Source: Halorubrum kocurii JCM 14978 (GTDB lineage: Archaea > Halobacteriota > Halobacteria > Halobacteriales > Haloferacaceae). From it: 34,254 nt of DNA. The stretch covers positions 1-34,254 of the forward strand of contig NZ_AOJH01000102.1 in NCBI RefSeq assembly GCF_000337355.1. The letters run 5' to 3'. The stretch's first letter is position 1, and the number at the start of each line of letters is the position of its first letter. The translations under genes were made by a program, and so were the position numbers. Below the pieces are notes generated by a model. That model had not been told where the DNA came from, did no database searches, and saw only the letters and a list, made by a program, of their open reading frames with translations. Shown in pieces: positions 539-32,590 of the stretch.

Positions 539-623
539 GCGCGGGTTGCCGAGCCAGGCCAAAGGCGTAGCGCTTAGGACGCTATCCCGTAGGGGTCCGC
601 CGGTTCAAATCCGGTCCCGCGCA
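539..623 (+). tRNA. tRNA-Leu (anticodon UAG)
   Basis: The acceptor arm GCGCGGG pairs with CCCGCGC (616-622), followed by discriminator A623. The anticodon stem TAGCG/CGCTA encloses the loop CTTAGGA, giving anticodon UAG (reads CUA, leucine). The long variable arm is that of a class II tRNA, as expected for leucine. The T-arm GCCGG-TTCAAAT-CCGGT is complete. CCA is not encoded. No intron is seen. The 3' part from base 570 is the attachment site of the element that follows, and integration restored a complete gene. Confidence 0.95.
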
Positions 624-624
624 T
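570..624 (+). repeat. attL: 55-bp direct repeat inside tRNA-Leu
   Basis: These 55 bases, from the anticodon stem to one base past the tRNA end, are repeated without mismatch at 15599-15653. Identity stops sharply on both sides. This is the usual footprint of site-specific integration into a tRNA 3' end. Confidence 0.93.
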
Positions 625-661
625 TCTCTACCTCCCGTTTTCGCTTTGTCTATCTACAAGC

Positions 662-1762
662 ATGAGCGAAACAAACCTCGATAAGCCGAATACGCTGAAA
701 CGCTGTCCCGGTTTCGATTCGGATATGCTAGAGCCGAATAGAACGATTACAATAGTCCGGAAGGGCCAACGCGACTTCTTAACCCGGAAGGCCGCCGTAG
801 ACTACTACGAGTACCGCAAGCCCTTCTTGACCTACCTCCTCAAAATGGGAAAGAACCCCAAGAAGGCGAAGGGATACTCCCCATATACGGTGTGTCAAAC
901 TGGTCATCGGTGCGCTCGGTTCGACTTGTGGGTATGGGAGAACCGTGGCGGATACAAAGCACCACCTGACCAAGAGGATGCTCGGGCCTACATGGAAGAG
1001 GTCGCCTTCCGGGATGTAACCGAATCAACGAAAGGCAAGATCCTCGGTTCCCTCGGACGGTATTCGAAGTGGCTTCAGCACAAGTTTAACCGAGACGAAT
1101 GGGAGTTTAACTGGAATTTCCAATCAGGTGGAGGCAACAACGGCCCGAGAGATTTCCTAACAAAGCCTGAGAGACGAAAAATCCGACAGGCTGCACTCGG
1201 GAAGGACGGCACGCCTAACTACGGGACAGACGATCTTCTCGAAGCTGACCCCGAGAGTTGGAAGTTCACCTCTCTCGTTTGGACAAGCCTCGATGCCGGT
1301 CTTCGTCCGGTGGAAGTTGGGAACGCTAGGGTTAGCTGGTGTGAACCGGAAAATTCTCTCCTTCGCATCCCGCGAGAAGATTCGGCGAAGAACGAGGGGA
1401 ATTGGACGGTCAGTCTCACCGACAGAACAGCAACCGCGTTAGAACGGTGGATAGACGAGCGAGAAGACCATCCGAGATACGAAGACACCGACAAGCTGTG
1501 GCTCACTCGGCATGGGAACCGCTACGGTTCGAACGAACTGAGTCGGATACTCAAAGACCTGTGCGATAGAGCTGGAATCAATCACCAGAATCGCCAGATG
1601 TCGTGGTACTCCATTCGCCATTCAGTTGGTACTCACATGACCAAAGAACGGGACCTTGCCGCAACACAGGCTCAGTTACGTCACGAGTCGGTGAAGACCA
1701 CGCTCAAGTACGATAACGTCCCGGTTGAAGATCGACGAGAGGCACTTGATAAAATGGGCTGA
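662..1762 (+). CDS. Tyrosine recombinase / integrase
   Basis: This enzyme would integrate and excise the element at the tRNA-Leu 3' end. The N-terminal half (about residues 30-150) looks like a SAM-like, core-DNA-binding domain. The C-terminal catalytic domain shows the first arginine in LDAGLRPVEVG (about R215), a Y-x-x-R box in WYSIRHSVGTH (Y316, R319) and the nucleophile in TTLKYDNVP (Y350). Tyrosine replaces the first histidine of the bacterial HxxR box, as described for one archaeal integrase class (R..YxxR..Y). The 366-aa length is normal. The ATG at 662 is the first plausible start after the tRNA. The gene is transcribed away from attL, is entire, and is not split by the att site as SSV-type integrases are. 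Confidence 0.92.
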   Translation: MSETNLDKPNTLKRCPGFDSDMLEPNRTITIVRKGQRDFLTRKAAVDYYEYRKPFLTYLLKMGKNPKKAKGYSPYTVCQTGHRCARFDLWVWENRGGYKAPPDQEDARAYMEEVAFRDVTESTKGKILGSLGRYSKWLQHKFNRDEWEFNWNFQSGGGNNGPRDFLTKPERRKIRQAALGKDGTPNYGTDDLLEADPESWKFTSLVWTSLDAGLRPVEVGNARVSWCEPENSLLRIPREDSAKNEGNWTVSLTDRTATALERWIDEREDHPRYEDTDKLWLTRHGNRYGSNELSRILKDLCDRAGINHQNRQMSWYSIRHSVGTHMTKERDLAATQAQLRHESVKTTLKYDNVPVEDRREALDKMG

Positions 1763-1974
1763 GAACCCTACCTGCGTACAGATTGTGGTCACCACAGAAC
1801 GACATCTCGTCGACGTCCCTCGATCCGTGCGTAAGTCGACGACAAGGGGGTCTATCACTTTGACCTGCAACGGTACAAACGCCTACTTTGCTTAGATTGG
1901 GCAAGGTGAACTAACATCCCTACGAAACCGGCGTAGCGTGGCTATATTTCCGATGGGCCCTCAAGTACTAGGGG

Positions 1975-1983
1975 ATTTATGAA
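1975..1983 (+). promoter_or_regulatory. TATA-like box of the hsd operon
   Basis: ATTTATGAA is centred about 26 bp before the hsdM ATG at 2005, which predicts a leaderless or nearly leaderless transcript. The 242 bp between the integrase stop and hsdM hold no convincing gene. Confidence 0.5.
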
Positions 1984-2004
1984 GTGCAGGAATAATTCAT
2001 AACT

Positions 2005-4029
2005 ATGTCTGACTTCAACGAAATATCGAACTTCGTTTGGGGAACTGCTGATCTAATTCGTGACAAATTTAAGCGAGGCGATTACGAAGAAGTTATTCTT
2101 CCGTTTGTTGTTCTGAGACGGCTTGACTCTGTTCTCGAACCCAATAACGATGACGTGCGGGAAGCCTACGAACAATACGGTGGCGAGCTGAACGAACAGG
2201 CCCTCCAAGAAGTCCTGAAAGATGCCGCGGATGCACCCTTCTATAATTACTCTGAGTACACCCTCGAAACTCTGCTCGACGAGCCGAGCGACATCGAGCG
2301 GAATCTCAAGGAGTACGTTCACTCTTTCTCTCCGGAGATGCAGGAGATTCTCGACAACTTCGGGTTCGAATCTACTATTGAGGAGCTTGCTAAGCACGAT
2401 CTCCTCTACAAAGTCGTGAAGCGATTCACACAGCCAGAAGTTGATCTGCACCCTGACCGAGTCGACAACTCCACGATGGGGGACATCTTCGAGGAACTCA
2501 TTCGCAGATTCAACGAATCTCTTGACGAGAACCCTGGCGAGCACTTCACTCCGAGAGAAGTCGTCCATCTGATGGCAGAGTTGGCAATCGAGCCAGACAG
2601 AGACACATTCGAGGAAAACCAGATCCTCCACGTGTACGACCCCTGCTGTGGTACCGGTGGGATGCTGACCGAGACTGAAGGCCGAATAAAACAGATCAAC
2701 GACGACGTCGAAGTCTGGTCGTTCGGTCAGGAAGTCAATCCCCAGACACACGCCATCGCCAAGTCAGACATGTTTATCAAGGGGGAAGACACCACAGCAG
2801 CAAACAACATCTCGGATGGCTCCACCCTCGCGGAAGACGCTTTCCCGGACAAGCAGTTCGACTACATGCTCGCCAATCCCCCATATGGGAAAGACTGGAA
2901 AAGCGACAAAGAAGCCGTAAAAAAGGAATACGAGCAAGGCTGGGGAGGAAGATTCGGCGCAGGGCTTCCCGCCAAAGATGATGGCCAGTTCCTCTTTCTA
3001 CAGACAATGCTTTCGAAGATGCAGGACCCAGACGAGGGCGGAAGTAGAGTTGCGTTTATCTCTAATGGCTCACCACTCTTTACCGCGGACCCAAACATCT
3101 CTGATAGCAAAAACGAATGTAGTATCCGAAGATGGATAATCGAAAACGACTGGATTGAAGCGATGATTCGTCTTCCAGATGAACTCTTCTACAATACTAA
3201 GATTACTACCTACGTCTGGGTTCTTTCCAATGATAAACCCGATGAGCGGAAAGAACAAATTCAATTGATAGACGCATCTGGCGAAGAGTTTTGGACCCTA
3301 ATGGATGATAACAAGGGAGACAAGCGAAAGGAACTCACGGAAGACCAAATCCAGAACATCCTCAAAATATATAAGAAAAAAGATAACACTGCAAATTCTC
3401 AGATTCATTCGCTACGTGAATTTGGATACAGAAAAGTACGGATCGAACGCCCACTTCGCAAGAATTTCAGGGCCTCTGAAGACCGGATAGAACAGATCAA
3501 AGATGAAAGGGCATTCCAGAACCTCTCTGGCAGCAAGGAGGGCAAACAGAAGCAGAAAGCCATTATCAAAATGCTACACGGAATAGATGATGGACTCTAC
3601 AAAAATAGAGGAGGGTTTGAAGAGATAGTAGATGATGCAATAGAAGAGGCAGGTCTTGATCTCAAGAAATCCGTCCGTGGTAATATTTTCAACGCCCTTG
3701 GTGAGAAGGATCCGGACGCAGAAATCGTAAGAGATAGCAAGGGCCGCCCTGAGCGAGATACGGACCTTAGCGACTACGAGTATATTCCTCTGGAGAAAGA
3801 CGTACGGGACTACTTCGAAGAGGAGGTACAACCCTACCGACCCAATGCATGGATCAATGAGGATATGACTGATCCTAATGACGGCGAGCTTGGGAAGATC
3901 GGATACGAAATCAATTTTAACCGCTACTTCTACAATTACGAATCCCCACGACCTCTCGAAAATATTGAGAAGGACATTAAACGAGTAAAACAACAAGTAG
4001 TTGATATGATTCAAGAGGTGACCGAGTGA
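2005..4029 (+). CDS. hsdM: Type I restriction-modification, M subunit (N6-adenine methyltransferase)
   Basis: This is the modification subunit. With HsdS it methylates adenine in the recognition sequence, and it is also part of the restriction complex. The N-terminal helical domain (about residues 1-140) is followed by the N6-methyltransferase domain. HFTPREVVHLM, the SAM-binding motif DPCCGTGG (residues 212-219) and the catalytic NPPY (291-294) are all intact. At 674 aa it is longer than the classical enzymes (about 500-530), with extra acidic sequence at the C-terminus. The stop TGA shares its A with the hsdS ATG, so translation is probably coupled. Catalytic residues look functional. Confidence 0.96.
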   Translation: MSDFNEISNFVWGTADLIRDKFKRGDYEEVILPFVVLRRLDSVLEPNNDDVREAYEQYGGELNEQALQEVLKDAADAPFYNYSEYTLETLLDEPSDIERNLKEYVHSFSPEMQEILDNFGFESTIEELAKHDLLYKVVKRFTQPEVDLHPDRVDNSTMGDIFEELIRRFNESLDENPGEHFTPREVVHLMAELAIEPDRDTFEENQILHVYDPCCGTGGMLTETEGRIKQINDDVEVWSFGQEVNPQTHAIAKSDMFIKGEDTTAANNISDGSTLAEDAFPDKQFDYMLANPPYGKDWKSDKEAVKKEYEQGWGGRFGAGLPAKDDGQFLFLQTMLSKMQDPDEGGSRVAFISNGSPLFTADPNISDSKNECSIRRWIIENDWIEAMIRLPDELFYNTKITTYVWVLSNDKPDERKEQIQLIDASGEEFWTLMDDNKGDKRKELTEDQIQNILKIYKKKDNTANSQIHSLREFGYRKVRIERPLRKNFRASEDRIEQIKDERAFQNLSGSKEGKQKQKAIIKMLHGIDDGLYKNRGGFEEIVDDAIEEAGLDLKKSVRGNIFNALGEKDPDAEIVRDSKGRPERDTDLSDYEYIPLEKDVRDYFEEEVQPYRPNAWINEDMTDPNDGELGKIGYEINFNRYFYNYESPRPLENIEKDIKRVKQQVVDMIQEVTE

Positions 4030-5420
4030 TGGATCCTATCAATAAAAAAATAGAAGGTGGGCTCGCCAACGATAGTAAAAACAAATATTTGAAATATGGG
4101 GATTATGCGACTCCTGGTATTGAATGGCTAGATGAGATTCCAGCCCACTGGGAGGAAAAAAAGCTAAAAGAGACTATAAAGGAGTGTATAAATGGTATTT
4201 GGGGATCTGACCCAGAAGATGTTGAAAAAGTCATCAAATGTGTTCGTGTGGCTGATTTCGATTACAATAGAGTTAGAATAAATAGTGAAAACCTTACTGA
4301 GAGGGATATACCAGAAAATAAAAAAACTGGGAGGATACTAAAGAATGGCGACTTATTAATTGAAAAGTCAGGAGGTGGTGATAAGCAACTTGTCGGTAGA
4401 GTTGTTCTTTTCAACCTTGATGAAAAAATGGTTTGTTCTAACTTTATTGGCAGGATGCCTGTTCGATCTGGTTATAATTCAAATTACCTTGCATATCTTC
4501 ACAAATGCTTGTACCAGTATAGGATAAACTTAAAATCGATTAAACAGACCACTGGTATCCAAAACTTGGATATAAATCAGTATTTGAACGAAAGAGTTCC
4601 AATTCCGCCATTAGAAGAACAAAAATGTATTGCACAGTTCCTTGATGAAGAGACCAAGAAGAGTAATAGATTAATAACCAAGAAAAGAGAATTAATCGAT
4701 CTTCTAGAAGAAAAGCGTGCTTCAGTAATTAATGATCTAGTCACCGGGAACACTAATAATTCGAATACAAAAGATACTGAGCTTGATTGGTTCGGTTCGA
4801 TTCCACAAGGCTGGCAGACAATCAGTCTAAGAAATATCGTAGACGATTTTGTAGACTATCGTGGTGCTACACCCGAGAAGAGTGATACTGGAATAACGCT
4901 CATTACAGCGAAAAATATTGAAAACGGCAAATTAGATTTCTCTGAAAGCCACGAGTACATATCCGAAAAAGAATACAACGATTGGATGACGAGGGGTAAA
5001 CCAGAAGCAGGTGATATACTGATCACGACTGAAGCGCCGATGGGTGAGGTAGCCCAAATCCAGGAAACGCCAGTAGCTCTTGCTCAGAGAATTATCCTAT
5101 TAAAATCTAACACAGATATTATTAATAAAACTCATCTAAAATATTTCTTGTTCTCTGAGATTAACCAAGCACAGCTAATGAAGAATCAAACAGGATCAAC
5201 TGCAAAGGGAATTAAAGCCTCTAAACTGAAGGGGATTCGTGTTTTTGTTCCTCCGAAAGAGGAGCAGAAGAATATTGTTGAAAAGATAGAAGATGAATCG
5301 GGTGAAATTGACAATTTAATATTCAAAGTAGAACAGGGAATAGAATACTTGAAGGAGTACAGAAGGGCTCTAATCGCTGAGGCCGTGACTGGACAGATTG
5401 ACGTGCAAGGTGAGATCTAA
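4029..5420 (+). CDS. hsdS: Type I restriction-modification, S (specificity) subunit
   Basis: HsdS reads the bipartite DNA target for both methylation and cleavage. Two target-recognition domains are visible. Each opens with the usual phrase (IPAHWEEKKLK near residue 38, IPQGWQTISLR near residue 258) and each ends in a conserved helix (PIPPLEEQKCIAQFLDEE and VPPKEEQKNIVEKIEDE) that acts as the spacer coiled coil. The end, EYRRALIAEAVTGQIDV, is the family's classic C-terminus. The ATG at 4029 overlaps the hsdM stop; a GTG at 4026 would add one residue. The stop TAA shares its last A with the hsdR ATG. The gene is markedly AT-rich compared with hsdM and hsdR, suggesting that specificity domains were exchanged from another source. 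Confidence 0.95.
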   Translation: MDPINKKIEGGLANDSKNKYLKYGDYATPGIEWLDEIPAHWEEKKLKETIKECINGIWGSDPEDVEKVIKCVRVADFDYNRVRINSENLTERDIPENKKTGRILKNGDLLIEKSGGGDKQLVGRVVLFNLDEKMVCSNFIGRMPVRSGYNSNYLAYLHKCLYQYRINLKSIKQTTGIQNLDINQYLNERVPIPPLEEQKCIAQFLDEETKKSNRLITKKRELIDLLEEKRASVINDLVTGNTNNSNTKDTELDWFGSIPQGWQTISLRNIVDDFVDYRGATPEKSDTGITLITAKNIENGKLDFSESHEYISEKEYNDWMTRGKPEAGDILITTEAPMGEVAQIQETPVALAQRIILLKSNTDIINKTHLKYFLFSEINQAQLMKNQTGSTAKGIKASKLKGIRVFVPPKEEQKNIVEKIEDESGEIDNLIFKVEQGIEYLKEYRRALIAEAVTGQIDVQGEI

Positions 5421-8400
5421 TGTCTGATAAGCTCAGTGAGAGAGCATTTGAGGAGGAAATTGTAAATGATCTTATCTCAGACACGAATTGGGAGGAAGGC
5501 GAGTTAGAACCGCTATATGAGCAGTTTGATCCCGGTGGATACCGTGAACGGGAAAATCGCCATTACGACAAAGAACTCGCCCTGATCCCGGAGGACGTTT
5601 TGGCGTTTGTCAAGGCGACCCAGCCCGACGAGTGGGAAAAGTTGGCGGATTTCCACGGTGAGGGTGCCGAGGGCAAATTCCTGAACACGCTCGACAGACA
5701 GATCAAACGGAAAGGCGCAATCTACGTACTCCGAAACGGTTTGAGGCTTAGTGGAGCGAGGTTTCAGCAATTTGCATACTTCGAACCCGCTACAGACCGC
5801 AACAAGAAGGCGGTCGAAAACTACCAGAAGAATATCTTCTCGGTCATACCAAGGCTCACCTACAAGTCGGGATCGAATCTGGAAGTCGATCTCGTCATCT
5901 TCCTGAACGGCATTCCGATTTTCACTGCTGAGCTGAAAGGAGAGTTTACTGGGCAGGACGTTATCGACGCTAAGGATCAGTATCGGACAGACCGGGATCC
6001 GAGAGACAAGCTATTCAGCCCTGGTCGTTGCCTCGCTCACTTCGCCGTTGATCCTGAGGAAGTGTATATGGCCACCGAGCTTGATGCGCAAGACACCTAT
6101 TTCCTACCGTTCAACAAGGGATACAAGGAGGGTGCCGGCAACCCTCCCAATCCCTCTGGCTACCGGACAAGCTACTTCTGGAAGTACCTGCTGAGCCCGG
6201 ACAGCGTTCTCGACGTCGTCCAGAATTTCATAACCGAATTTCGTGAACGAGACGATCAGGGGAACCTGAAAGACTCCGAGTTCCTTGTTTTCCCACGGTA
6301 CCACCAGCTCCAGGCGGTAAGGCGGAGTGTCGTCGACGCAGAGCAGAACGGTGCGGGGCAGCGATACCTCATCCAACACAGCGCGGGTAGTGGTAAGACC
6401 TTCACCATCTCCTGGCTTGGGCACCAGCTTGCTGAACTCCATAGCGATCAGAACGAGCCGATATTCGACTCAGTGATCGTTATCTCCGACCGGAGAGTGC
6501 TTGACGACCAACTACAGCACCATCTGAAGCAGTTCTCTCAGGTCGACGGGGTCGTTGCCAACGTCGAGGACAACTCCCAGCAACTGAAGGAGGCGCTCGA
6601 AAGCGGGGAGAAGATCATCGTTACCACGATCCACAAGTTCGACTACATCGTCGAGGAGATGCAGGATCTCTCCGACAGGAATTTTGCCGTTCTGATCGAC
6701 GAGGCTCACTCCTCCCAGACGGGCGAACTCAAGGATAGTCAAACGAGAGCTCTCTCCGAAGAATCCGCTACCGAGGGCGGAGAGGACGGTGAAGATATCT
6801 CCGTCCAGGATCGGTTGACTCAGGATATGGAAGGGAGGGGAGTCCTCTCGAACGTCAGCTCGTTCGCCTTCACCGCCACGCCCAAAGAGAAGACCCTTGA
6901 GATGTTTGGCGAGGAGACCGAAGACGGCGGGTACGAGCCGTTCAGTCTGTACAGTATGCGGCAGGCCATCGAGGAAGGGTTCATTCTCGACGTTTTGCAG
7001 AACTACACGACGTATCAGGACTATTTCAACCTGCTAAAGACAATAGAGGACAACCCGGAGTTTGAGGAGTCCAAAGCGAAGAGACTGCTCAAGTCATTTG
7101 TCGACAGCCACGATCTCGTTATTTCGAAGAAGACCGAAATCATCGTCGAGCACTTCGCTGAAGAGGTGATGCACCGGATAGACGGGAAAGCGAAAGCAAT
7201 GGTCGTCACGGGATCGAGAGAGCAGGTGGTCAAGTACAAGAGAGCATTTGACGAGTACCTTTCCGAGAACGGCTATGACTTCGAGGCTTTGGCTGCCTTC
7301 TCTGATTTCAAATATGAGGGCGAGAAGCTTACAGAGAAGAAGGTCAACAAGAACCTCGATACCAAAATTGAGGACCGATTCGACGAGGATAATGCACGGA
7401 TCATTATTGTCGCAAACAAGTTCCAGACTGGGTTCGATCAGCCTCTTCTGCACACGATGTACGTCGACAAGAAGCTTGGAGGTGTGAGGGCTGTCCAGAC
7501 CCTCTCTAGGCTTAACAGAACCCATCCAAATAAGGAAGATACGATGGTCGTTGACTTCAGGAACGATCCGGACGACATCCAGGCTGCATTCGAGGATTTC
7601 TACACCAAAACGAGGGTCAAGCAGGGAACTAACCCGCAGCTTGTTTACGATCTTGAAGACGACCTACGCGAATTCAGACTGTTCGAAGACAGCGAAGTTG
7701 AGGAGTTCACCGAACTCTGGTACGGTGACGACACGACCCAAGATCAGTTGAGCGCTGTGCTCGATCCCGTCAAAGAACGGTACAGGAGTAAGGACAAGGA
7801 GACTCAGGAAGAGTTCCGCAAGAAGTTGCGGGACTTCATACAGCTCTACTCGTTTCTCATCAAAGTCGTGAACTTCCGGGACGAAGAACTGCACAAGCTC
7901 TATCAGTTTTCGAGGGTCCTGTTCAGGAAACTGGACGTGGAGCGTGGGGAGATGCCGAACGAGGTCAAGCAATTCGTTGATCTTGAACAGTACCGCATCA
8001 AAGAGGTTACTTCTGAGGAGAATCGGTCGCTTGAGAAGTCGAACGGTGATTTGGGACCGACTCACAAGTCGAAAGACGGGACGGCCAGGACGGAGGAGAA
8101 GAAGTCTCCGTTGGATAACATCGTTGAGATGCTGAACCAGCAGTTTGGTTACGAAGTTGATGAACAGGACAAGACCTTCATCAAGCATCTTAAGAAACGC
8201 TTGGAAGAGAATAACGCGTTGAAGGAGACTGTGGAGAAGAACAGCACTGAGAAGGCCCAGATGAAGTTTGAGAACGTCACTCGGCAGGAGATGCTGGATA
8301 TGATTGACCAGAATACGAAATTTTTCAACAAGGCCACAAATGATGACGAGTTTGCAGAGGTGTTCCAGAGCTGGTTGTTCAATCAGTTCGTTAGCTCCTC

Positions 8401-8872
8401 AAAGGAAGATACTCGGGGGCTGATAGAGAAGGGCCGAAGCAAGACGGTCGAATTCGAAGAGCATCTCCTGCCAGATACAGAGTCTGACGATCTCGCAAAA
8501 GAGAGAGTCGCAAAACACGTCGCTGCGTTCGCTAATACCGCAGGAGGCCACGTGATCGTCGGCGTTGACAAAGAGGGGGTAGTTCAGGGCTTAGAAAGTG
8601 ACTTTAAATCAATCACAAAAGGTCAAGAAGGATTCAAGAAACAACTTGAGAATGGGTTGGCTGAACACCTTGGGGAGACATTTGCGACTCAACAAACTGA
8701 ACTCCAATTCAGCACTATTGATGAGAGATCTGTATGTGTCGTGAAAGTAGAGCCAAATGATGAGCCCATAGCGATGGAGGGGGACGAGCTATACGTTAGA
8801 AAAGAAGGTGAAACCAAGCAGCTCAGCTCCAGAGATTCAAAGGAATACATTCAAAAGCATTTCAGAGGATAG
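5420..8872 (+). CDS. hsdR: Type I restriction enzyme R subunit with C-terminal AlbA_2/Schlafen-like domain
   Basis: HsdR is the ATP-driven DNA translocase and nuclease of the complex. The N-terminal nuclease domain has the HSDR_N pattern with the acidic residue in LEVDLVIF and E-L-K at 171-173. Helicase motor motifs follow: Walker A SAGSGKT (about 319-325), DEAH (427-430), FAFTATP (about 482), and FQTGFDQP with QTLSRLNR (about 670-700). After a helical region, residues about 1000-1145 form an extra domain with VEFEEHLLP and FANTAGGHVIVGVDKEG, which matches the AlbA_2/Schlafen-like putative DNA- or RNA-binding fold (PF04326 as I recall it). The length of 1150 aa exceeds the usual 1000-1050 and the difference is this tail. 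All motor and nuclease residues appear intact. Confidence 0.95.
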   Translation: MSDKLSERAFEEEIVNDLISDTNWEEGELEPLYEQFDPGGYRERENRHYDKELALIPEDVLAFVKATQPDEWEKLADFHGEGAEGKFLNTLDRQIKRKGAIYVLRNGLRLSGARFQQFAYFEPATDRNKKAVENYQKNIFSVIPRLTYKSGSNLEVDLVIFLNGIPIFTAELKGEFTGQDVIDAKDQYRTDRDPRDKLFSPGRCLAHFAVDPEEVYMATELDAQDTYFLPFNKGYKEGAGNPPNPSGYRTSYFWKYLLSPDSVLDVVQNFITEFRERDDQGNLKDSEFLVFPRYHQLQAVRRSVVDAEQNGAGQRYLIQHSAGSGKTFTISWLGHQLAELHSDQNEPIFDSVIVISDRRVLDDQLQHHLKQFSQVDGVVANVEDNSQQLKEALESGEKIIVTTIHKFDYIVEEMQDLSDRNFAVLIDEAHSSQTGELKDSQTRALSEESATEGGEDGEDISVQDRLTQDMEGRGVLSNVSSFAFTATPKEKTLEMFGEETEDGGYEPFSLYSMRQAIEEGFILDVLQNYTTYQDYFNLLKTIEDNPEFEESKAKRLLKSFVDSHDLVISKKTEIIVEHFAEEVMHRIDGKAKAMVVTGSREQVVKYKRAFDEYLSENGYDFEALAAFSDFKYEGEKLTEKKVNKNLDTKIEDRFDEDNARIIIVANKFQTGFDQPLLHTMYVDKKLGGVRAVQTLSRLNRTHPNKEDTMVVDFRNDPDDIQAAFEDFYTKTRVKQGTNPQLVYDLEDDLREFRLFEDSEVEEFTELWYGDDTTQDQLSAVLDPVKERYRSKDKETQEEFRKKLRDFIQLYSFLIKVVNFRDEELHKLYQFSRVLFRKLDVERGEMPNEVKQFVDLEQYRIKEVTSEENRSLEKSNGDLGPTHKSKDGTARTEEKKSPLDNIVEMLNQQFGYEVDEQDKTFIKHLKKRLEENNALKETVEKNSTEKAQMKFENVTRQEMLDMIDQNTKFFNKATNDDEFAEVFQSWLFNQFVSSSKEDTRGLIEKGRSKTVEFEEHLLPDTESDDLAKERVAKHVAAFANTAGGHVIVGVDKEGVVQGLESDFKSITKGQEGFKKQLENGLAEHLGETFATQQTELQFSTIDERSVCVVKVEPNDEPIAMEGDELYVRKEGETKQLSSRDSKEYIQKHFRG

Positions 8873-9543
8873 AATAACCACATTACTACGAATTACAACC
8901 CGGAAGGCGCCGCAGTCACGCCGCTGTACCAAGTGTACGCTAGTCGCACGTTCCACCAGAACAGATAGACTCTCCCGTACAGAACCTCAGCTTTTCCACA
9001 CATCGATAGCCAACTTATTCTAGTCGTTACCTTTCGCCCTCGCGCCCACTTTTGGGGGTAAATTCTGGCAAAAATGCCGCTGGGATGTAGGCCGGGTTAC
9101 TAATTGGCGCGCACAGAATCCCCGACGATGTTCTAACCATGGTTATCAAATATTCGACTGATAAATTTATCCTTCATAACCCCCGAATTAACTGTACAGA
9201 TGTATCCACTAAGATCGACCCATATGTAGCTTCACGTCCGGGGTATCTGAGATGGGCAGAAACTGACCGTAGTGTAGCCGCACGTAAAGCACAATCAAAA
9301 ATTGAGGCCAGCTCAACTCGGTGGTGGTCAATTAAATCGCTCAATCGAGCTGATATGGACCGCTCAAACCCCCGGTTCAGGACTCCAGAATATCGCTCGA
9401 AAACAAACTCTATAGAGAATCCTATTAATTCTGAACTGAAATACCCGACTTACGTATAGCGTTTCCCTATAGACTCATCAAATACCAAGGTTTTTCTGTC
9501 TGTGGCTCTATGCCCTATACGAGCACTTCCCATTCAAAGAGAC

Positions 9544-9565
9544 GAGACTATCCTCGGGTAGTCTC
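9544..9565. repeat. Strong inverted repeat (hairpin)
   Basis: GAGACTATC and GGTAGTCTC form a 9-bp stem (one G-T pair) around the loop CTCG. There is no T-run directly after it, so it is not a simple terminator. It could be an RNA structure or a protein site. Confidence 0.6.
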
Positions 9566-9610
9566 TTGCCGAACCTCCGATAGGTCGTGGATCGGGGGAT
9601 AGGAGCTTGG

Positions 9611-9631
9611 GTAGGTAATGGCCGAACCTAC
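9611..9631. repeat. Inverted repeat followed by AGTTTTA
   Basis: GTAGGT and ACCTAC form a perfect 6-bp stem with a 9-base loop, followed by AGTTTTACA. A related GCCGAACCTC occurs 50 bp upstream at 9568, so part of the loop and stem is repeated. It may end a transcript coming from the left. Confidence 0.45.
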
Positions 9632-10298
9632 AGTTTTACAATAACTGTCAGACCAGACGTTTGAACGCTGGAAGGTCGCCGGGTTTAGTTCGATATGTGA
9701 ACACAGATGCGAAATCATATGTCTAGATATAATGTATCCTATATTAGTTGAAATAATACCTTGAGCTAAATCGATTTTGAAGAATGGTAGTACAAATATG
9801 ATATTGTATTCGTGTTCTTGTTACTATATTTGGTGAACGACAGGTAATTACCACAGCATAACTATATTATTCGCCAGTCAGACTCGAAATAATGGCGGCT
9901 GTCGCAGTTCCGCAGCCACCCCTTCCAGCGTCTAACGCCGTAACTTCCAATCGTGGAAATGGAAGGATCAGTTTGCCGTAGGGAGAGTTTCCATCGATGA
10001 AAGATAGCATAATTGGAATCAGACTTCCTTCGTACGGGTAGTGAATGATGGATTCATAAATAGCAGCGATTAGGTCAACAACCCCTATGACTATGTGCTA
10101 GTCCTCGAAAAATTTCTCTACCGGACAGTCAAACTTGGACACACGACTCCGTCGGCTACTTTTCGATTGGGGGAGTCATAGAACAGTTCACATACCTTGT
10201 TTACTAATCCGTAAGTCGTTCAGTATAGTATATTCATTAAGCAAAATATCATTGAGATAAATCTCAGAAATTTAGAAGCATGTTTATCTATCACCGGC

Positions 10299-11075
10299 TT
10301 AATCGATATTCTCACTAACTTTTGTTAAATCACTTGTATGTAAAAAGTAATCAGCGCTAAATTTATCTGGGGAATTTCTAGCACTTTTGTTGAATTTGTC
10401 GATGTCTGACACACCAAGAATATCAATTTCAATTGGGGAATTAAACTCTGCCATCCAATCTATTTCCTTATTGAACTTATATACTACAAATTTCCCCATA
10501 TCTTCAAATTTATCAAATTTTCTTCTTATTTCTCCTAAATAATCTGGATCTTCTTGTATCTCCTTATCTCCCACAATATGCGTTATCCTAGTCGGACCAG
10601 GTTGTATCAGATCAGCATGATTCCCCCAGTCCCTAAATGAGACTTTAGCTGCGCTGACAAGAGTGTCTGATGGGAGACGATTATATTGTCTCTCAGTTAG
10701 GGTTACCCAGTTATAATGAGGTTGGAGGCCTCTTATTGAAAGTCGGTTCTCTAACGAATTAGTCTTAATCGTTAGTCGTTGATTCCAAGGGTTGTGAAAT
10801 GATGTCCAATCAATCCTTTCATCAATTCCTCTAACCCTACTGCTAATATTATATTCTTTTTCCAGCATTTTTTGGAATCCTAATCGAGCTAACAAGTGGT
10901 GAAGTTCGTACGATAGAAAATCCTCCCATATCCTTCTTGTTCGAAAACTAGTCACATCATATTCGTCTGTCTCCTCTTGATACTGAGATACAACTTCATG
11001 TCCAACATTGTTTCCGATTTGACCAACCGTCTCCAAGGTGGTTTTAAATTCTGACTCGTTAATCTGGTACGTCAT
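10299..11075 (-). CDS. Orphan AT-rich protein, possible degenerate nuclease-like fold
   Basis: I do not recognise this 258-aa protein. No signal peptide or membrane segment is seen. A middle stretch (residues about 90-145) reads RIDWTSFHNP, then LTIKTNS, then WVTLTERQYNRL. The order of an acidic residue, a strand ending in x-K-T, and 'TLTERQ' resembles the core of PD-(D/E)xK-type domains, but a threonine stands where the second acidic residue should be, so activity is doubtful and the comparison is only a suggestion. The gene is far more AT-rich than its neighbours, which points to recent transfer. It is transcribed alone towards the left; a CTATATC box lies about 26 bp before the ATG. Its place between a restriction operon and a Rep-like gene makes a defence role possible. 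Confidence 0.7.
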   Translation of the reverse strand: MTYQINESEFKTTLETVGQIGNNVGHEVVSQYQEETDEYDVTSFRTRRIWEDFLSYELHHLLARLGFQKMLEKEYNISSRVRGIDERIDWTSFHNPWNQRLTIKTNSLENRLSIRGLQPHYNWVTLTERQYNRLPSDTLVSAAKVSFRDWGNHADLIQPGPTRITHIVGDKEIQEDPDYLGEIRRKFDKFEDMGKFVVYKFNKEIDWMAEFNSPIEIDILGVSDIDKFNKSARNSPDKFSADYFLHTSDLTKVSENID

Positions 11076-11181
11076 ATATGATTGAATTCTAACTATATCA
11101 TAGTATCTTCCGGATAGTCTCTCCTCAAATACCGTGTAATTAATAGAAGGAGTGCCCTAGTAGTAGATATTACAATCCAAC

Positions 11182-11201
11182 CAGTCAATTGAAATTGACT
11201 G
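11182..11201. repeat. Perfect 20-bp dyad
   Basis: CAGTCAATTGAAATTGACTG is two perfect 9-bp arms around GA. It lies in the 294-bp gap between two leftward genes, about 107 bp before the start of the orphan gene. It may be an operator or part of a terminator for the Rep-like gene; there is no T-run. Confidence 0.7.
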
Positions 11202-11369
11202 TTCGAATGCTCGTCCTGCCAATTGATTCATCGAATCCCAGATGAAATCAGGTCCTTGCGAATAATTCGATGACACCCTCTGTCGATTGCCAAAATTGAA
11301 TTAGTCATCTCGGAGAGCGCTACGGCGAGCGGAGTGGGGGTAGATTTCCGGTGGTTGGCACATAGTCAT

Positions 11370-12245
11370 TTATGGTAGATCCGGAACACCCCCACTTGCT
11401 CGGAACCAATGATACGGACTGGCCCAAGCAAGCGCACCTCCATTCAGTAGAGTATCAGACGGATTACTTCGCTTGCTGTTGTGATAGTCCCCGACAGGAA
11501 GATGGACGAGCTGGCTAGCAACAAATTTCGCTCCTGCGGTATTTGCGTAGCTCGGCTCTTCGCTATCCTCCTGAATCTTCCAGAAGTCGTCCTTAGAGTG
11601 ACTGGCTAATGGCGGCGAGTGTCTGACCGTAATGGCACCAGCACTTCCGTTCTTATGATACGCATGGTCTTCCTCGAAAGCTTTCGCGCATCTATCTATG
11701 TGCTTGTCCAAGGCGGGGGATAGCCACTCAGCAGACACCTTGTTGTCGGGATCGTCAATCCAGAGATAAATATACTCTCGCGGCGCACCTGATGTCTGTG
11801 TTACGCTCGTAACTCCTACCGACTCAAAATCAAAGTCTCTCTTTTCTGAGAGGTGATAATTAATTGCTTCCCGTACACTCCGCCGTATTTCTCCCCCATT
11901 GAGCATCGCATCAAGCTCCCACGGTGTCAACCGTTCACCAGATTCATCAAATGGAGAAAGACCACGAGTGAGTTTAGCGGTCGTCAATCCTTCATATTGT
12001 TCTTGAAATCGTCTGTCAGATTCCAAGATTCGTGGATAGAGGACCTTTTGATGCCGCGTGTACTTCGATGTGCGGTCGTCAGACTTCCACGAAGCCCGTT
12101 CAATTCGTAAGTACGTCTCTCGGGCTTCATCTACGGTTAGAGATCTTGTGCCGTCGTGTAACGGATCGGGGAGATCGTCTACATCAACTGATGAAGGAGT
12201 CAATCGTAGGCTATCCGAGTTTGACGAGTTCACAAGTGAATTCAA
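11370..12245 (-). CDS. Conserved haloarchaeal Rep-like protein of mobile elements
   Basis: This 291-aa soluble, acidic protein has a distinctive C-terminal half: EYIYLWIDDPDN, LDKHIDRCAKAFEEDHAYHKNG, TAGAKFVASQLVHLPVGDY, and ALAWASPYHWFRASGGVP. I recall similar endings in haloarchaeal plasmid and integrative-element proteins, often annotated loosely as replication proteins. I could not verify this, and no HUH, helicase or primase motif is visible. The N-terminal third is charged and probably helical. It runs leftward, and the small winged-helix gene lies just upstream in the same direction, 159 bp away. I infer a role in replication or maintenance of the element from its context. The start ATG at 12245 is the first in frame. 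Confidence 0.72.
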   Translation of the reverse strand: MNSLVNSSNSDSLRLTPSSVDVDDLPDPLHDGTRSLTVDEARETYLRIERASWKSDDRTSKYTRHQKVLYPRILESDRRFQEQYEGLTTAKLTRGLSPFDESGERLTPWELDAMLNGGEIRRSVREAINYHLSEKRDFDFESVGVTSVTQTSGAPREYIYLWIDDPDNKVSAEWLSPALDKHIDRCAKAFEEDHAYHKNGSAGAITVRHSPPLASHSKDDFWKIQEDSEEPSYANTAGAKFVASQLVHLPVGDYHNSKRSNPSDTLLNGGALAWASPYHWFRASGGVPDLP

Positions 12246-12404
12246 ATCATCTTTCGGATAGTGGTATTTGAAAAGTTCGTTCGACCTGTCTATAACTGTC
12301 CGCTTAGATCGCGGGAAGATGGCCGAGATGGGTTCTATTTTTTCGCCATCAGTTATTGTATGTCCTTGATGGAATTATTAGGTGTCCTGAGAGGCTGGTT
12401 CCTA

Positions 12405-12641
12405 CTATTTGTCCATGGAAATGTAGACCACAGCTCGCGCTCCGACTTTCTTTTTGTGTAGATCTCCCTGCTCGACGAGATCTTCGAGTTTGTTGTATGC
12501 GCTTGGTCGGGAACAGTCCAACTCCTCCGCAACTTCGCTGGCAGTCAATACTGGCACCTCGACGCGGTTGAAGACAGAGAGCACGCTATCGAGTGAGATC
12601 TGCTCCGTGTACCGACCAGTATCATCACGTCCTTTCTCCAT
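12405..12641 (-). CDS. Small winged-helix transcriptional regulator
   Basis: This 78-aa DNA-binding protein has a winged helix-turn-helix: VLTASEVAEELDCSRPSAYNKLEDLVEQGDLHKKKVG (split here by helix boundaries at about residues 31-66), then a wing strand RAVVYI. It resembles the short MarR/TrmB-like regulators found beside replication genes in haloarchaeal elements. An inverted repeat (12649-12662) lies between its TATA-like box (about 12662-12670, read leftward) and its start codon, exactly where an autorepressor would act. Divergent genes to the right begin at 12822, so one intergenic region may control both directions. Confidence 0.85.
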   Translation of the reverse strand: MEKGRDDTGRYTEQISLDSVLSVFNRVEVPVLTASEVAEELDCSRPSAYNKLEDLVEQGDLHKKKVGARAVVYISMDK

Positions 12642-12648
12642 GCGCGTA

Positions 12649-12662
12649 TGTACGAGCGTACA
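12649..12662. promoter_or_regulatory. Inverted repeat, candidate operator of the winged-helix gene
   Basis: TGTACGAGCGTACA is two perfect 6-bp arms around AG. It starts 8 bp before the regulator's start codon (12641, leftward), over its probable transcription start. Autoregulation is inferred. Confidence 0.6.
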
Positions 12663-12685
12663 AAGTATAGTCCCTGTGACTTCGA

Positions 12686-12729
12686 AGTTAGTGGAAAAGA
12701 CTTATTACCAATAACTACGAAGTTACTGG
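12686..12729. promoter_or_regulatory. Three copies of AGTTANTGG around a rightward TATA-like box
   Basis: AGTTAGTGG (12686-12694), its relative AGTTATTGG on the opposite strand (12708-12716 reads CCAATAACT) and AGTTACTGG (12721-12729) lie within 44 bp. The first and third share the longer form CGAAGTTA(G/C)TGG, 35 bp apart. The rightward TATA-like TTATTA (12702-12707) lies between the first two. They may be repressor sites or iterons. Confidence 0.55.
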
Positions 12730-12770
12730 TAGAAGGTTGCCCGTTCCTCGGGGCGTTGCGGCTTGGAAAA

Positions 12771-12798
12771 CGCCCGGTGCTAGAACACCGGACGGGCG
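12771..12798 (+). other. Structured 5' leader with alternative pairings
   Basis: CCGGTG (12774-12779) can pair with CACCGG (12786-12791). Alternatively CGCCC (12771-12775) can pair with GGGCG (12794-12798). The two stems compete for the same bases. The element lies about 25 bp before the ATG at 12822, inside the predicted leader. Such a switch could affect translation, but no known riboswitch is recognised. Confidence 0.35.
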
Positions 12799-12821
12799 GC
12801 CTTCCGGGTTACCAGAAAGCC

Positions 12822-13085
12822 ATGACAGAACACAACTCTCCGGCAGATAAGAGCATCGTTGAGGAACTAGAGACCATCGTAGATATTCGAGACGTTCTCA
12901 TCCCGGCTGAGTGCGGGTGTAAGGCCGGTAATTACGAAGACTACTGTGGCTACCAGCAAGTGGTCGAAACTGCTAGAGCCGGTGTCTGTGCAGTTCTACA
13001 TGTTGCTGCTGTAGACCGTAAGAACTCCTCGCCCTTCCGGGTTTCAGGACTCGCTTGCTATGCCCGCTTTGAGGTGGATCTATGA
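12822..13085 (+). CDS. Small hypothetical protein with cysteine cluster
   Basis: I do not recognise this 87-aa protein. It begins MTEHNSPADKS, is acidic, and contains ECGCKAGNYEDYC, which may bind a metal. No membrane segment is seen. The frame is open upstream to 12648, but that part crosses the operator repeats and the structured leader, so the ATG at 12822 is the better start. Its stop TGA lies inside the ATGA that starts the next gene, so the two are translationally coupled. Similar small proteins before zinc-finger genes occur in haloarchaeal elements, as I recall. Confidence 0.68.
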   Translation: MTEHNSPADKSIVEELETIVDIRDVLIPAECGCKAGNYEDYCGYQQVVETARAGVCAVLHVAAVDRKNSSPFRVSGLACYARFEVDL

Positions 13086-13942
13086 CAGATCACCAGAACG
13101 ACGAGCGCACCGTACGCTGTCCGGTCGAAGGGTGTGACGCAACGCCGCTAGCAAGAGGCGTGAATCTTCACGTTAATCGTTCGAGTGGGGACGGTCACGG
13201 ACCACGAGGCGAGGTTCCACCAGACGTCTCGTTCGAAGATCTCGAAACCGTAGGGGCACGCGAAGTTGAGATGGACTATCCGGAAGAACGCGAAAACGAG
13301 AAACACGCTCGGCTGTGTCCGTACTGTAATCAGACGTTCGCTGGCGAGCAAGGAGTGATGATCCACCTCGGTCAGACAGCTGGTCGAAAGAACCATCCAG
13401 AGAGTGCTGGCGAGCATCACACTATCGACGACTTCCCACGCGTGGAAGTTGACGAGCGGGGCAATATAACAAGCGTCATCGATGGAAGTGAAGACATCAA
13501 TCTAGTTGAGGACAGGATGATGGTTCCAGCTCGGGCTGTCTACACTCTTGTTGCTGAGTTCGTCGCTGAGGACGATCTGGTGACAGCTCATCGTCTCCGC
13601 AAGCACCTTCTCGGTGTTGACAATCCAACACGCCCGCTTCGAACTGCGCCAACGGACCAGAAGTTGTTCTCGGCGCTCTTGGGACGGGGGTACGACGGGG
13701 AAGCCGGACAACAGGTGTCTTCTACAGTTCGGAAGGATGGGATCATGATTGCTTGCCGAGGTGAGTCTGCGCTCTACTCTGCTGATGAAGCCTTAGATCT
13801 CGCAGCAGCGTTAGAAAGGACCGCCAGTCGGGAGGATTGGCAGGGAGAAATTCCCAGCTTTATTCAATTCCTCCGTAACGGAGCCGAAGCTCTTGACGGC
13901 GACAGGATGGAGAGTGAACTGCCCAAAGAGTTCGAACATTAG
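13082..13942 (+). CDS. C2H2 zinc-finger protein
   Basis: This 286-aa soluble protein has two finger-like motifs in its N-terminal third: C13-x4-C18-x11-H30-x8-H39 and the more canonical C79-x2-C82-x12-H95-x9-H105 (CPYCNQTF). The remainder is an alpha/beta region without a recognised family, with a conserved-looking MVPARAVYTLVAEFVAEDD. It is probably a DNA-binding regulator or accessory factor of the element. It overlaps the preceding gene by ATGA and closes the small operon. Archaeal viruses and plasmids commonly encode such fingers. The target is unknown. Confidence 0.82.
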   Translation: MTDHQNDERTVRCPVEGCDATPLARGVNLHVNRSSGDGHGPRGEVPPDVSFEDLETVGAREVEMDYPEERENEKHARLCPYCNQTFAGEQGVMIHLGQTAGRKNHPESAGEHHTIDDFPRVEVDERGNITSVIDGSEDINLVEDRMMVPARAVYTLVAEFVAEDDLVTAHRLRKHLLGVDNPTRPLRTAPTDQKLFSALLGRGYDGEAGQQVSSTVRKDGIMIACRGESALYSADEALDLAAALERTASREDWQGEIPSFIQFLRNGAEALDGDRMESELPKEFEH

Positions 13943-14078
13943 CGGCAAGCGGTCAGATAGCGTGACCCGTACTTAATGCTGTACCGGTCGAAGAGGTTTG
14001 TTTCCTTTATATTAAGACAGAATACATATCATCAATATTAGTAAGATACTGAACACATTTTAATAGCTTGAAGTTGCA

Positions 14079-14390
14079 ATGGATGACATGAGCGAACGTA
14101 CGACATCAATCTCACAATCAATTGAATACGAGACGGCAGCATGCGCACTCTGTGATGATGATGTGTTTGTTGATGATAAAAAAGATAATATTGAGAATAT
14201 GCCGGAGGGGGTACCTGTTGTTATCGGTGGTGGTAAACACATGTCGGTAAATAAAACGGATCGAGTTAGTTTGAACAAAGACCACTGGCAGCCAGAAGTT
14301 TTAATCAAATGGTTTACAGATGATGAGCAAGATCCAGATTTAACCGAACAGTACCTCTGTCCATCTTGCACAAAATCCTTATATAAATAA
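14079..14390 (+). CDS. Zinc-ribbon protein, soluble paralogue of a tandem pair
   Basis: This 103-aa protein has an N-terminal C-x2-C (CALC) and a C-terminal C-x2-C (CPSC) that can form one zinc ribbon across the chain. Between them is an acidic region with VPVVIGGGKH. It aligns in layout with the next protein: a Y-(E/D)-T phrase before the first Cys pair, then a valine-glycine strand, then the second Cys pair. TTTTAATA at 14058-14065 is a TATA-like box about 18-21 bp before the ATG. A second ATG at codon 4 is possible. It ends in TAATG overlapping the next start. The function is not known. Confidence 0.75.
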   Translation: MDDMSERTTSISQSIEYETAACALCDDDVFVDDKKDNIENMPEGVPVVIGGGKHMSVNKTDRVSLNKDHWQPEVLIKWFTDDEQDPDLTEQYLCPSCTKSLYK

Positions 14391-14824
14391 TGAAAGATGA
14401 GAGTGCAGTCACCAAGACCATCACATACGATACCGAAAACTGCTCAATTTGTGAGACAGAAGTTGCCCTTGACAGTTCAGTCCCGAAGGATGCATTTGAA
14501 TCAAAAGGATATGCAGTAATTCTTGGAGAAGGTAAGGTTAATAAACGCATCGAGGAGGAGGGTAACTGGGATTTTGAACTGAAATTCAATTTAGATGCAA
14601 CTGATCAAAAACATCCGTCTGTTAGTGGTTATATTATCTGTGAAGACTGCGCGTATAGCATGCATGATCACCCCGAAAGCGCGGATTATTATTATGGAAG
14701 CATTCCTACTGAAATAGATTCTACCTCCATATCTAGTGATTTGGGAACAGCAGACGATCAGTTAAAAATAGCACTAGCAATTCTGCTGGTTCTATCTGTT
14801 GTTATAATAATGTTTGTTCTTTAG
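14390..14824 (+). CDS. Zinc-ribbon protein with C-terminal membrane anchor
   Basis: This 144-aa protein has CSIC near residues 18-21 and CEDC near residue 84, so a zinc ribbon is likely. The final 20 residues (LKIALAILLVLSVVIIMFVL) are a single hydrophobic helix that reaches the C-terminus, which makes it a tail-anchored membrane protein with its zinc domain in the cytoplasm. It appears to be a paralogue of the preceding gene and is translated from an overlapping start. Its end overlaps the 3' end of the opposing gene by four bases. The function is not known; the pair looks like a membrane and cytosol two-part system. Confidence 0.78.
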   Translation: MKDESAVTKTITYDTENCSICETEVALDSSVPKDAFESKGYAVILGEGKVNKRIEEEGNWDFELKFNLDATDQKHPSVSGYIICEDCAYSMHDHPESADYYYGSIPTEIDSTSISSDLGTADDQLKIALAILLVLSVVIIMFVL

Positions 14825-15399
14825 ATCTGGTCCATCAGTTTCTCTTTTTTATTTTGGAATTCTTCATCAGATATCACACCACTTTCATTTAATTCGCTCA
14901 GCTTTTCAATTCTATCTATAGGATCTTCAGATTTCTCATCTGCATTCTGCCTATTTTGTCCGCTATCTCCACATTTTTCTCTAACAAAATCTACTATTGC
15001 TTGAATCTCATCTGAATCCTGCGTCTCCGTTATACCAATTCCGTGTATTGTTGCTGACATTTCCAAGGCCAATTTTTTGAAAACCATCCCGCTTTTTAGA
15101 TTCACCGATGAAATGTCCTTATAATTAAATGTGTTTTGTTCATTTCCAATCAGTTTGTGTTTTCTCTTGACAAATATGCGTTTATCAGTTAATACCATGC
15201 GTACGTTGAATGTCTGTTTTTCTTCACCGTTTATAGAGTATCTAGAGCCCGATGAGATATAGTGGACCTTCTCGCCTGGCGAAAGGTGCTGATCAATTTT
15301 TGCTACGTTAGACTTGGTAACTGATTTTCCCTGTGGACTACAGTCTAGGTCGGCATTCTCTAGAACAATTTCATTATCATCCTGGCTGAATATCCCCAT
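14821..15399 (-). CDS. PH-like domain protein with C-terminal SHOCT domain
   Basis: This 192-aa protein has a bacterial-PH-like (YokE/bPH type) beta domain at about residues 40-130: LSPGEKVHYISSGS, VRMVLTDKRIFVKRK, YKDISSVNLKSGM. A charged linker follows, then a SHOCT helix pair at the end (DPIDRIEKLSELNESGVISDEEF, broken by one turn, then KKEKLMDQI). SHOCT domains often mark oligomerising or membrane-associated proteins. There is no signal peptide or membrane helix. It is transcribed towards the zinc-ribbon pair and is the last gene before attR. The function is not known. Confidence 0.82.
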   Translation of the reverse strand: MGIFSQDDNEIVLENADLDCSPQGKSVTKSNVAKIDQHLSPGEKVHYISSGSRYSINGEEKQTFNVRMVLTDKRIFVKRKHKLIGNEQNTFNYKDISSVNLKSGMVFKKLALEMSATIHGIGITETQDSDEIQAIVDFVREKCGDSGQNRQNADEKSEDPIDRIEKLSELNESGVISDEEFQNKKEKLMDQI

Positions 15400-15478
15400 G
15401 TAAACTGTTATGAAATTGTATGATGATAATGATTTCCCTGTCAGAGACAGCCACGTCCAGCCGGTTGGCTAACGTGAT

Positions 15479-15498
15479 TAGCGCCTAACGCTATCCCG
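15479..15498 (+). repeat. Degenerate second copy of the tRNA-Leu anticodon arm
   Basis: TAGCGCCTAACGCTATCCCG matches tRNA bases 568-589 with one substitution and a missing GG at the anticodon. It is 101-120 bp inside attR and the T-arm is not present here. It may be an older or secondary attachment site. Confidence 0.55.
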
Positions 15499-15580
15499 GT
15501 GAAACTTTATAAGTAAGCCGGCCATTTGTTCCGGTAGACAGAGGAAGACGGTGTTTTGAGAGCGTGTTACGGGGCTGTAG

Positions 15581-15595
15581 AGTGCCGAAGGCACT
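15581..15595. repeat. Hairpin beside attR
   Basis: AGTGCC-GAA-GGCACT is a perfect 6-bp dyad that ends three bases before the 55-bp repeat. It may be an integrase arm site or a structure that replaces the lost tRNA 5' half. Confidence 0.5.
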
Positions 15596-15598
15596 CAG

Positions 15599-15653
15599 GC
15601 GCTTAGGACGCTATCCCGTAGGGGTCCGCCGGTTCAAATCCGGTCCCGCGCAT
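15599..15653 (+). repeat. attR: second copy of the 55-bp tRNA repeat
   Basis: Identical to 570-624. The tRNA 5' half (acceptor 5' strand and D-arm) is absent upstream, so this is an attachment site and not a working tRNA gene. GC-rich chromosome resumes directly after it. Confidence 0.93.
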
Positions 15654-29804: not shown

Positions 29805-30087
29805 CCGCGCCCTCGCTCAGGCGTGTTTTTATTTCGTCGCTGCTGTAGGTTTCCCCGTCGCCGGTCCGCAGCTGATGTTCGCTCGTCGCGATATCCTTCC
29901 AGCCAGACCGCGAAAAGGCCGGATGTTTCACTGCGTCTCGGAGTGCCCACCGGATAAACTCACTTCGAGACGGGAAATCCTCCGCACGCCACGTCGCGTC
30001 GAGATCGTCAAGAAACGCCTCCGGGACTTTCAGCGTGATCGTGGTCATGTTGGGGTCGTTGTTACCCCCGGAATCTGCGTCGGACAT
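29791..30087 (-). CDS. Ribbon-helix-helix antitoxin
   Basis: A 98-aa protein with an MTTITLKVPEAFLDDLDAT strand-helix and FPSRSEFIRWALRDAVK second helix, the ribbon-helix-helix (CopG-like) fold. The C-terminal half would wrap the RelE toxin. It also normally represses its own operon. The ATG at 30087 has TTTAGGTAA about 26 bp upstream; a later ATG (30048) starts directly at the ribbon and cannot be excluded. Confidence 0.88.
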   Translation of the reverse strand: MSDADSGGNNDPNMTTITLKVPEAFLDDLDATWRAEDFPSRSEFIRWALRDAVKHPAFSRSGWKDIATSEHQLRTGDGETYSSDEIKTRLSEGADGGE

Positions 30088-30209
30088 ACCAGAGTATTAC
30101 CATTGTGTTACCTAAACGTTGTCGGCGGCCTAGATGGATTGCGTCACTAGCTACCCAGACCGACGCTAGCCTTTTGTATGACTGAGAAAAAGTAATAATA
30201 GAAAATAGT

Positions 30210-30485
30210 ATGAGTGAAACAGAGTCTGAAAAGGTGGTCTCTGTGTCGTCGCGGGGACAAGCGACCATCCCGAAAGAGTTCCGCGAGGAGTTGGGTATCG
30301 ACACGCCCGGCCGTGTGAAGTTCGTTCGGACCGAGGAGGGCGACATCGTTGTACGTCCTATCCACTCGGTGACAGACCTGCGTGGGATTCTGAAAGACAA
30401 AACTGACGACCAGGGGCGCTCGGCAACCGAGCGTCTTCAGAAGGAACGCGAAGCGGACAACGCCAGCGAAGCAGCGTTGCGGTAG
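30210..30485 (+). CDS. AbrB-type antitoxin, no toxin partner beside it
   Basis: A 91-aa SpoVT/AbrB-fold DNA-binding protein: VVSVSSRGQATIPKEFREELGI and VKFVRTEEGDIVVRPI are the swapped-hairpin strands. A toxin-binding tail follows. In haloarchaea such genes usually precede a PIN-domain VapC toxin. Here the next 120 bp hold no open frame with PIN motifs, and the next gene runs the opposite way, so it is an orphan. It diverges from the RelE pair, with 122 bp between starts. Confidence 0.9.
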   Translation: MSETESEKVVSVSSRGQATIPKEFREELGIDTPGRVKFVRTEEGDIVVRPIHSVTDLRGILKDKTDDQGRSATERLQKEREADNASEAALR

Positions 30486-30578
30486 CGCTACACCAGTGAA
30501 GCCAACCGACCCGGCCTATCCGTTCACCAAGAGCGGTTTCTAGGAGTTGAGGGATTCACTAAGGAGCTCAACGCACGC

Positions 30579-30592
30579 TGGATCTAGATCCA
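30579..30592. repeat. Perfect 14-bp palindrome
   Basis: TGGATCTAGATCCA lies between the convergent AbrB and hydrolase genes. It may be a protein site or part of a bidirectional terminator. Confidence 0.6.
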
Positions 30593-30607
30593 AGCACAAC
30601 ATGTCTC

Positions 30608-32101: not shown

Positions 32102-32590
32102 TATTTGTAACTACGCACACAATTGTAGAGTTTAATGTTTATTTAATAATACCGTAGTTTGAATTCTGGTAGAAAGGGTACCGACAGGATGGAGATATAC
32201 CCTGTAATAATGAATTTATACTCACATAGAGGATACGAGCGGAATCTTATGGGAATGAAGCGGCGGGTTTGTGGCTCACCTGACCCGGATCGACATGGTT
32301 TCAGATGGACCTTTGTAGGGTTAAAGCACCAGAGCATGCCCTCGTGAGGCCATAGCCACCAGCGTTCTAGACGAACTCTCAGTAGGTAGCTGATTGTTCA
32401 GAATATGGGGGTTGTCTGAACAGTTATTTTAGGACTAGAAAATGTACTACTTGCATATCTACCGATTGATATGTTGAAGTTACTATGACGGTCAAGGAAG
32501 GTCAATCATCGTATTGATGTCAAATTTTGATCGACCATATTTTGAGGTATGGTTAGATTTATTATATTACTATCTAAATATACCGGTGAG
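32102..32590. other. 489-bp divergent promoter region
   Basis: The gap between the divergent hydrolase and beta-propeller genes is AT-rich. A short frame (32159-32347) on each strand is not convincing. TGTTCAG (32395-32401) and CTGAACA (32416-32422) form an inverted repeat. GGTCAA occurs twice near 32491-32505. TATATT before 32570 is a candidate TATA for the rightward gene. A conserved-looking part near 32260-32345 could be the relic of an insertion, but I cannot assign it. Confidence 0.45.

Follow-up and report, generated by a model that had tools for sequence, protein, structure and literature searches.

A Schlafen-type AlbA_2 domain fused to the HsdR subunit of a type I restriction-modification system in Halorubrum kocurii: a rare variant of HsdR architecture

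The domain composition of type I restriction enzymes is usually presented as fixed, and the accessory domains of HsdR have been little explored. The preliminary description of a locus in Halorubrum kocurii JCM 14978 proposed that HsdR is fused there to an AlbA_2/Schlafen-like domain, which raises the question of whether such a fusion really exists and what it might do on a type I motor. The stretch of DNA analyzed here, which is referred to below as the window, consists of 34,254 nucleotides (contig NZ_AOJH01000102.1), and its features are listed in Table 1.

Table 1. Coordinates of the features of the integrated element, its type I operon, and the HsdR tail in the window
Feature	Coordinates	Strand	Remarks
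Left 55-bp direct repeat, probable att site	570..624	+	Overlaps 3' part of tRNA-Leu 539-623
Tyrosine integrase of the element	662..1762	+	Pfam Phage_integrase 8.3e-16
hsdM, type I N6-adenine methyltransferase, 674 aa	2005..4029	+	Pfam N6_Mtase 3.7e-60, HsdM_N 6.8e-22; PADLOC MTase_I 1.4e-249; DPCCGTGG and NPPY motifs
hsdS, specificity subunit, two Methylase_S stretches	4026..5420	+	Pfam Methylase_S 9.9e-24; PADLOC Specificity_I 7e-93
hsdR::AlbA_2 fusion, 1150 aa	5420..8872	+	Nuclease and motor motifs, Pfam
C-terminal extension	8402..8869	+	Residues 995-1150, missing from tail-less HsdRs of the same subfamily
SLFN_AlbA_2 domain, residues 1007-1135	8438..8824	+	Pfam and genome profile search
Rep-like DUF1424 protein	11370..12245	-	Within the element
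Right 55-bp direct repeat, probable att site	15599..15653	+	G+C near 70% past the repeat

The hsdM, hsdS, and hsdR genes are adjacent on one strand, hsdS and hsdR each beginning at or before the stop codon of the preceding gene, and on the motifs detected they form a complete type I restriction-modification operon. In HsdR, the residues D157...ELK(171-173), GSGKT at 323, DEAH at 427, TAT at 485, and QTLSRLNR at 693 were found, along with Pfam matches to HSDR_N (1.1e-11), SWI2_SNF2 (3.8e-26), and T1R_D3-like (6.7e-13); the TIGR00348 model also aligns to the protein, with a score under its cut-off (238.8 vs 284.55). Since the catalytic motifs of both HsdR and HsdM are present, the enzyme looks intact, and the system should restrict and modify DNA like an ordinary type I enzyme. 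It resembles the known type I systems (HsdR of EcoR124I, PDB 2w00) in the hsdM-hsdS-hsdR operon, the PD-(D/E)XK nuclease, the SF2 motor motifs, and the helical region preceding the tail. The operon is carried by a predicted integrative element of about 15 kb (570-15653) in the tRNA-Leu gene of this haloarchaeon: perfect 55-bp direct repeats form its bounds, and its G+C content is 41-57%, as compared with about 70% in the flanking chromosome. A second stretch of lower G+C content (0.54 to 0.44) follows the 70% G+C region at positions 30000-34000.

Classical HsdR proteins end at about 1000-1040 residues, whereas the window HsdR has 156 more, including the AlbA_2 domain. In the classical type I enzymes, the helical C-terminal region of HsdR docks to HsdM. 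Sixteen HsdRs of the same subfamily, showing 42-44% identity, were identified in 292 haloarchaeal genomes; they are alignable only up to about residue 989-1005 of the window HsdR, and the intact aligned ones end near residue 995, past the helical C-terminal region, the window protein running about 156 residues further. The fact that these relatives stop at about residue 995 indicates that the AlbA_2 domain was added after a complete HsdR, and rules out the possibility that the tail is the ordinary C-terminus of HsdR.

The identity of the tail was examined by profile and structure searches. The AlbA_2 pattern had been placed at about residues 1000-1145 in the preliminary description, and the in-frame SLFN_AlbA_2 domain (PF04326) detected with Pfam-A (E 1.9e-14, 54.6 bits vs a cut-off of 25.3) does indeed contain both of the motifs on which this placement was based, VEFEEHLLP (residues 1010-1018) and FANTAGGHVIVGVDKEG (residues 1037-1053). 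The isolated tail matched the same family with an E-value of 2.7e-16, and the PF04326 profile had a single match in the whole H. kocurii genome, that given in Table 1. When the PDB was searched with the tail as a single sequence, Schlafen proteins alone were obtained at E <0.02 (SLFN14, 2.8e-4), and a profile built from 13 related modules reached SLFN14 at 8.6e-15. In a Foldseek search with an AlphaFold model of the tail, the confidence of which is modest (pLDDT 57.7 with six sequences, 37 with two), the best 28 matches were all AlbA_2, Schlafen, or SAMD9-tRNase structures. The tail comprises 20.5% D+E vs 14.1% K+R; since its acidity matches that of the remainder of this halophilic HsdR, nucleic-acid binding cannot be read from its charge.

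How common this architecture might be was the question raised by the preliminary description, and two intact cases were found. The second, detected by searching 391 Halobacteria genomes with the tail, is that of Halomicroarcula rubra F13, where a 1152-codon frame encodes a protein 93% identical to the window HsdR (82% in the tail). This matching architecture in another genus rules out an assembly or frameshift artefact. When 84,980 species, each represented by one genome, were scanned for exact-peptide patterns, which is the form in which bacterial chromosomes were covered, only H. rubra and one relic were obtained. In Haloarcula amylovorans LR21, about the last 171 codons of the fusion are present and the upstream part of the operon is missing, while the DNA past this relic is 98% identical to the H. 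rubra locus. A shorter tail relic (61% identity over 61 residues) occurs on a plasmid of Natrinema gelatinilyticum. No other HsdR-type tail was found among 52 Halorubrum genomes, no HsdR carrying the tail in the plasmids searched, and no match to the HsdR tail in phages and viral contigs. A match reaching residue 1026 in an HsdR from a Klebsiella plasmid was rejected as spurious because it extends across a stop codon. In a 1334-aa HsdR from a genome having no tail match (G105), the AlbA_2 motif was not seen by eye in the last 450 residues. Among the genomes covered, the fusion is rare.

The two intact copies made it possible to examine the selection acting on the tail. Between the window and H. 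rubra, the dN/dS ratio is 0.05 in HsdR residues 1-994 (dS 0.47) and about 0.07 in residues 995-1150, the latter value being approximate because dS (1.8) is near saturation; judging from these ratios, the tail is under purifying selection. The idea that it is a functionless fused module hitch-hiking on a mobile element fits the rarity of the fusion and the truncated, relic state of two of the four copies known, but we consider it very unlikely in view of this low ratio and of a tail that is still open in two genera, at 70-80% identity, with synonymous sites near saturation. In sliding windows, pS amounts to about 0.35 in the hsdR core and rises near codon 1050, i.e., inside the AlbA_2 domain, to near-saturated values of about 0.8-0.9 past this codon, which suggests that the distal parts of the two tails split long ago and yet have both remained open. 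When hsdM is compared with locus L065, its synonymous divergence increases abruptly near codon 300, from about 0.3 to about 0.8, and this point is likely to be a recombination breakpoint. The simplest reading would be a recent swap of most of hsdR and a part of hsdM between lineages that were both already tailed, in which case the fusion would be old. The hsdS gene of H. rubra shows 32% identity with that of the window over part of its length and the flanks of the two loci do not match, so that the tail does not seem to be tied to one specificity.

Relatives of the tail are reused at the C-terminus of other proteins. GmrSD (DUF262) proteins terminate in such a module in haloarchaea, in other archaea, in Sinorhizobium, and in viral contigs, and the same is true of YaaA-like proteins, of TPR proteins, and of several proteins to whose N-terminal part Pfam assigns no name; a type I operon of Pseudoalteromonas includes an N6-methyltransferase ending in a related module. 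When viral contigs were scanned with four queries representing related modules, three GmrSD-type loci were obtained, and a single query accounted for all of them. The GmrSD proteins carry the same module on a restriction-type nuclease (about 35-39% identity among haloarchaeal members), but on a different host enzyme. In the phylogenetic tree, a single long branch unites the HsdR tails (support 0.99); it falls within a group (0.91) that also includes the Pseudoalteromonas methylase, the haloarchaeal modules, and two GIY-YIG-looking proteins. Some further arrangements were observed in the course of this survey. On the Pseudoalteromonas plasmid (L054:5945-16068), the N6-methyltransferase-AlbA_2 protein and a separate protein with an N-terminal AlbA_2 lie beside hsdM, hsdS, and hsdR. 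Eco57I-like archaeal methylases of 1506-1516 residues end in an AlbA_2 with the canonical Glu, Glu, Lys (L097:3278-7804, minus strand; L098:5812-10362, plus strand; L099:4911-9431, plus strand). Haloarchaeal proteins of 453 aa (L063:7747-9108 and L064:8344-9705, both on the minus strand) have a C-terminal AlbA_2 and an N-terminus that looks like GIY-YIG by eye and has no Pfam match.

In SLFN11, the substitutions E209A, E214A, and K216A each abolish the nuclease activity, whereas D252A does not, and Schlafens in which one of the three essential residues is missing are nuclease-deficient (PMC9482658). The residues at these four positions in the HsdR tail are R1006, E1011, E1013, and K1051, respectively, so that the Glu, Glu, Lys triad of the active Schlafen endoribonucleases is not present. 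In an alignment of 52 modules spanning these positions, the E214 equivalent is always Glu (52/52), while Glu at the E209 position and Lys at the K216 position are each found in 49 of the 52, the sole three exceptions being the HsdR-type sequences, which have Arg and Glu. All the aligned GmrSD members retain the Glu and the Lys, both of which are lacking in the HsdR tail. Since the three altered sequences form a single lineage, this loss counts as one event. The loss of the equivalents of E209 and K216 suggests that Schlafen-type RNase activity has likely disappeared, which would make the tail of HsdR a nuclease-dead domain.

The RNA-related response to infection contemplated in the preliminary description is therefore disfavoured as far as RNA cutting is concerned, Glu1011 alone having been kept. 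An active effector of this kind would be a Schlafen-type tRNase fired when the motor meets foreign DNA, serving as an abortive-infection back-up to restriction. Such tRNases do exist among the AlbA_2/Schlafen domains, Schlafen RNases linked to BREX loci have been described as back-up effectors (PMC12839542), and the related C-terminal modules of GmrSD and other proteins retain Glu, Glu, Lys; moreover, E1013, E1014, and D1050, located near the site, could form an altered metal site with E1011. The replacement of two of the three essential residues in both the window and the H. rubra proteins nevertheless makes this explanation highly improbable in our opinion.

The reading that we favour, to which we assign about an even chance, is that the motor of an intact type I system may have acquired a Schlafen domain that is nuclease-dead and serves to bind nucleic acid or to dock. 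The tail, which would no longer cut RNA, would be a nucleic-acid-binding or docking domain on a translocating motor, comparable to the nuclease-deficient SLFN5, the nearest Schlafen to it in the loss of the E209 and K216 equivalents. It might tune the positions at which the R2M2S complex engages invading DNA, moves along it, or pairs on it, or the stability with which the complex does so. With the Schlafen cores of SLFN5, SLFN11, SLFN13, and SLFN14, the tail has in common the AlbA_2 profile and the Glu equivalent to E214, and, to judge from a model of modest confidence, it may also share their fold; it differs from them in being a single AlbA_2 unit on a DNA translocase, with Arg and Glu at the other two positions. 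A parallel exists in the long-B pAgos, where a defence nuclease likewise carries a fused AlbA_2, putatively an additional domain for nucleic-acid binding, although the fusion is at the N-terminal side and to an Argonaute protein (PMC6299218).

Two other readings of a non-cutting tail deserve consideration. The tail might be a docking or dimerisation module without any direct nucleic-acid role, pairing two HsdRs or two complexes or recruiting a host partner. Its position after the helical region that docks to HsdM in classical enzymes is in keeping with this reading, as is the head-to-tail pairing of the Schlafen core domains in the SLFN11 dimer (PMC9482658), but no partner was found and the single-chain model is shallow (pLDDT 57.7); we regard it as unlikely. 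The tail may also provide a second nucleic-acid sensor or contact: the nuclease-dead domain might act as a built-in sensor on the motor, detecting for instance ssDNA, RNA, or a modified end that arises in the course of an infection, and a second signal besides site methylation would then gate restriction, which we regard as quite unlikely.

Among the papers searched, HsdR and Schlafen were not found together, and the single paper with both HsdR and AlbA_2 concerned an unrelated enzyme. The fusion thus exists, is rare, and is maintained by selection; it is not a new system but a rare new variant of HsdR architecture, in which a type I motor has gained a Schlafen-type module that is RNase-like elsewhere and that here has apparently turned into a non-cutting one. 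If the tail does gate or guide restriction, comparing the enzyme with and without it would ask whether restriction answers to a second signal.
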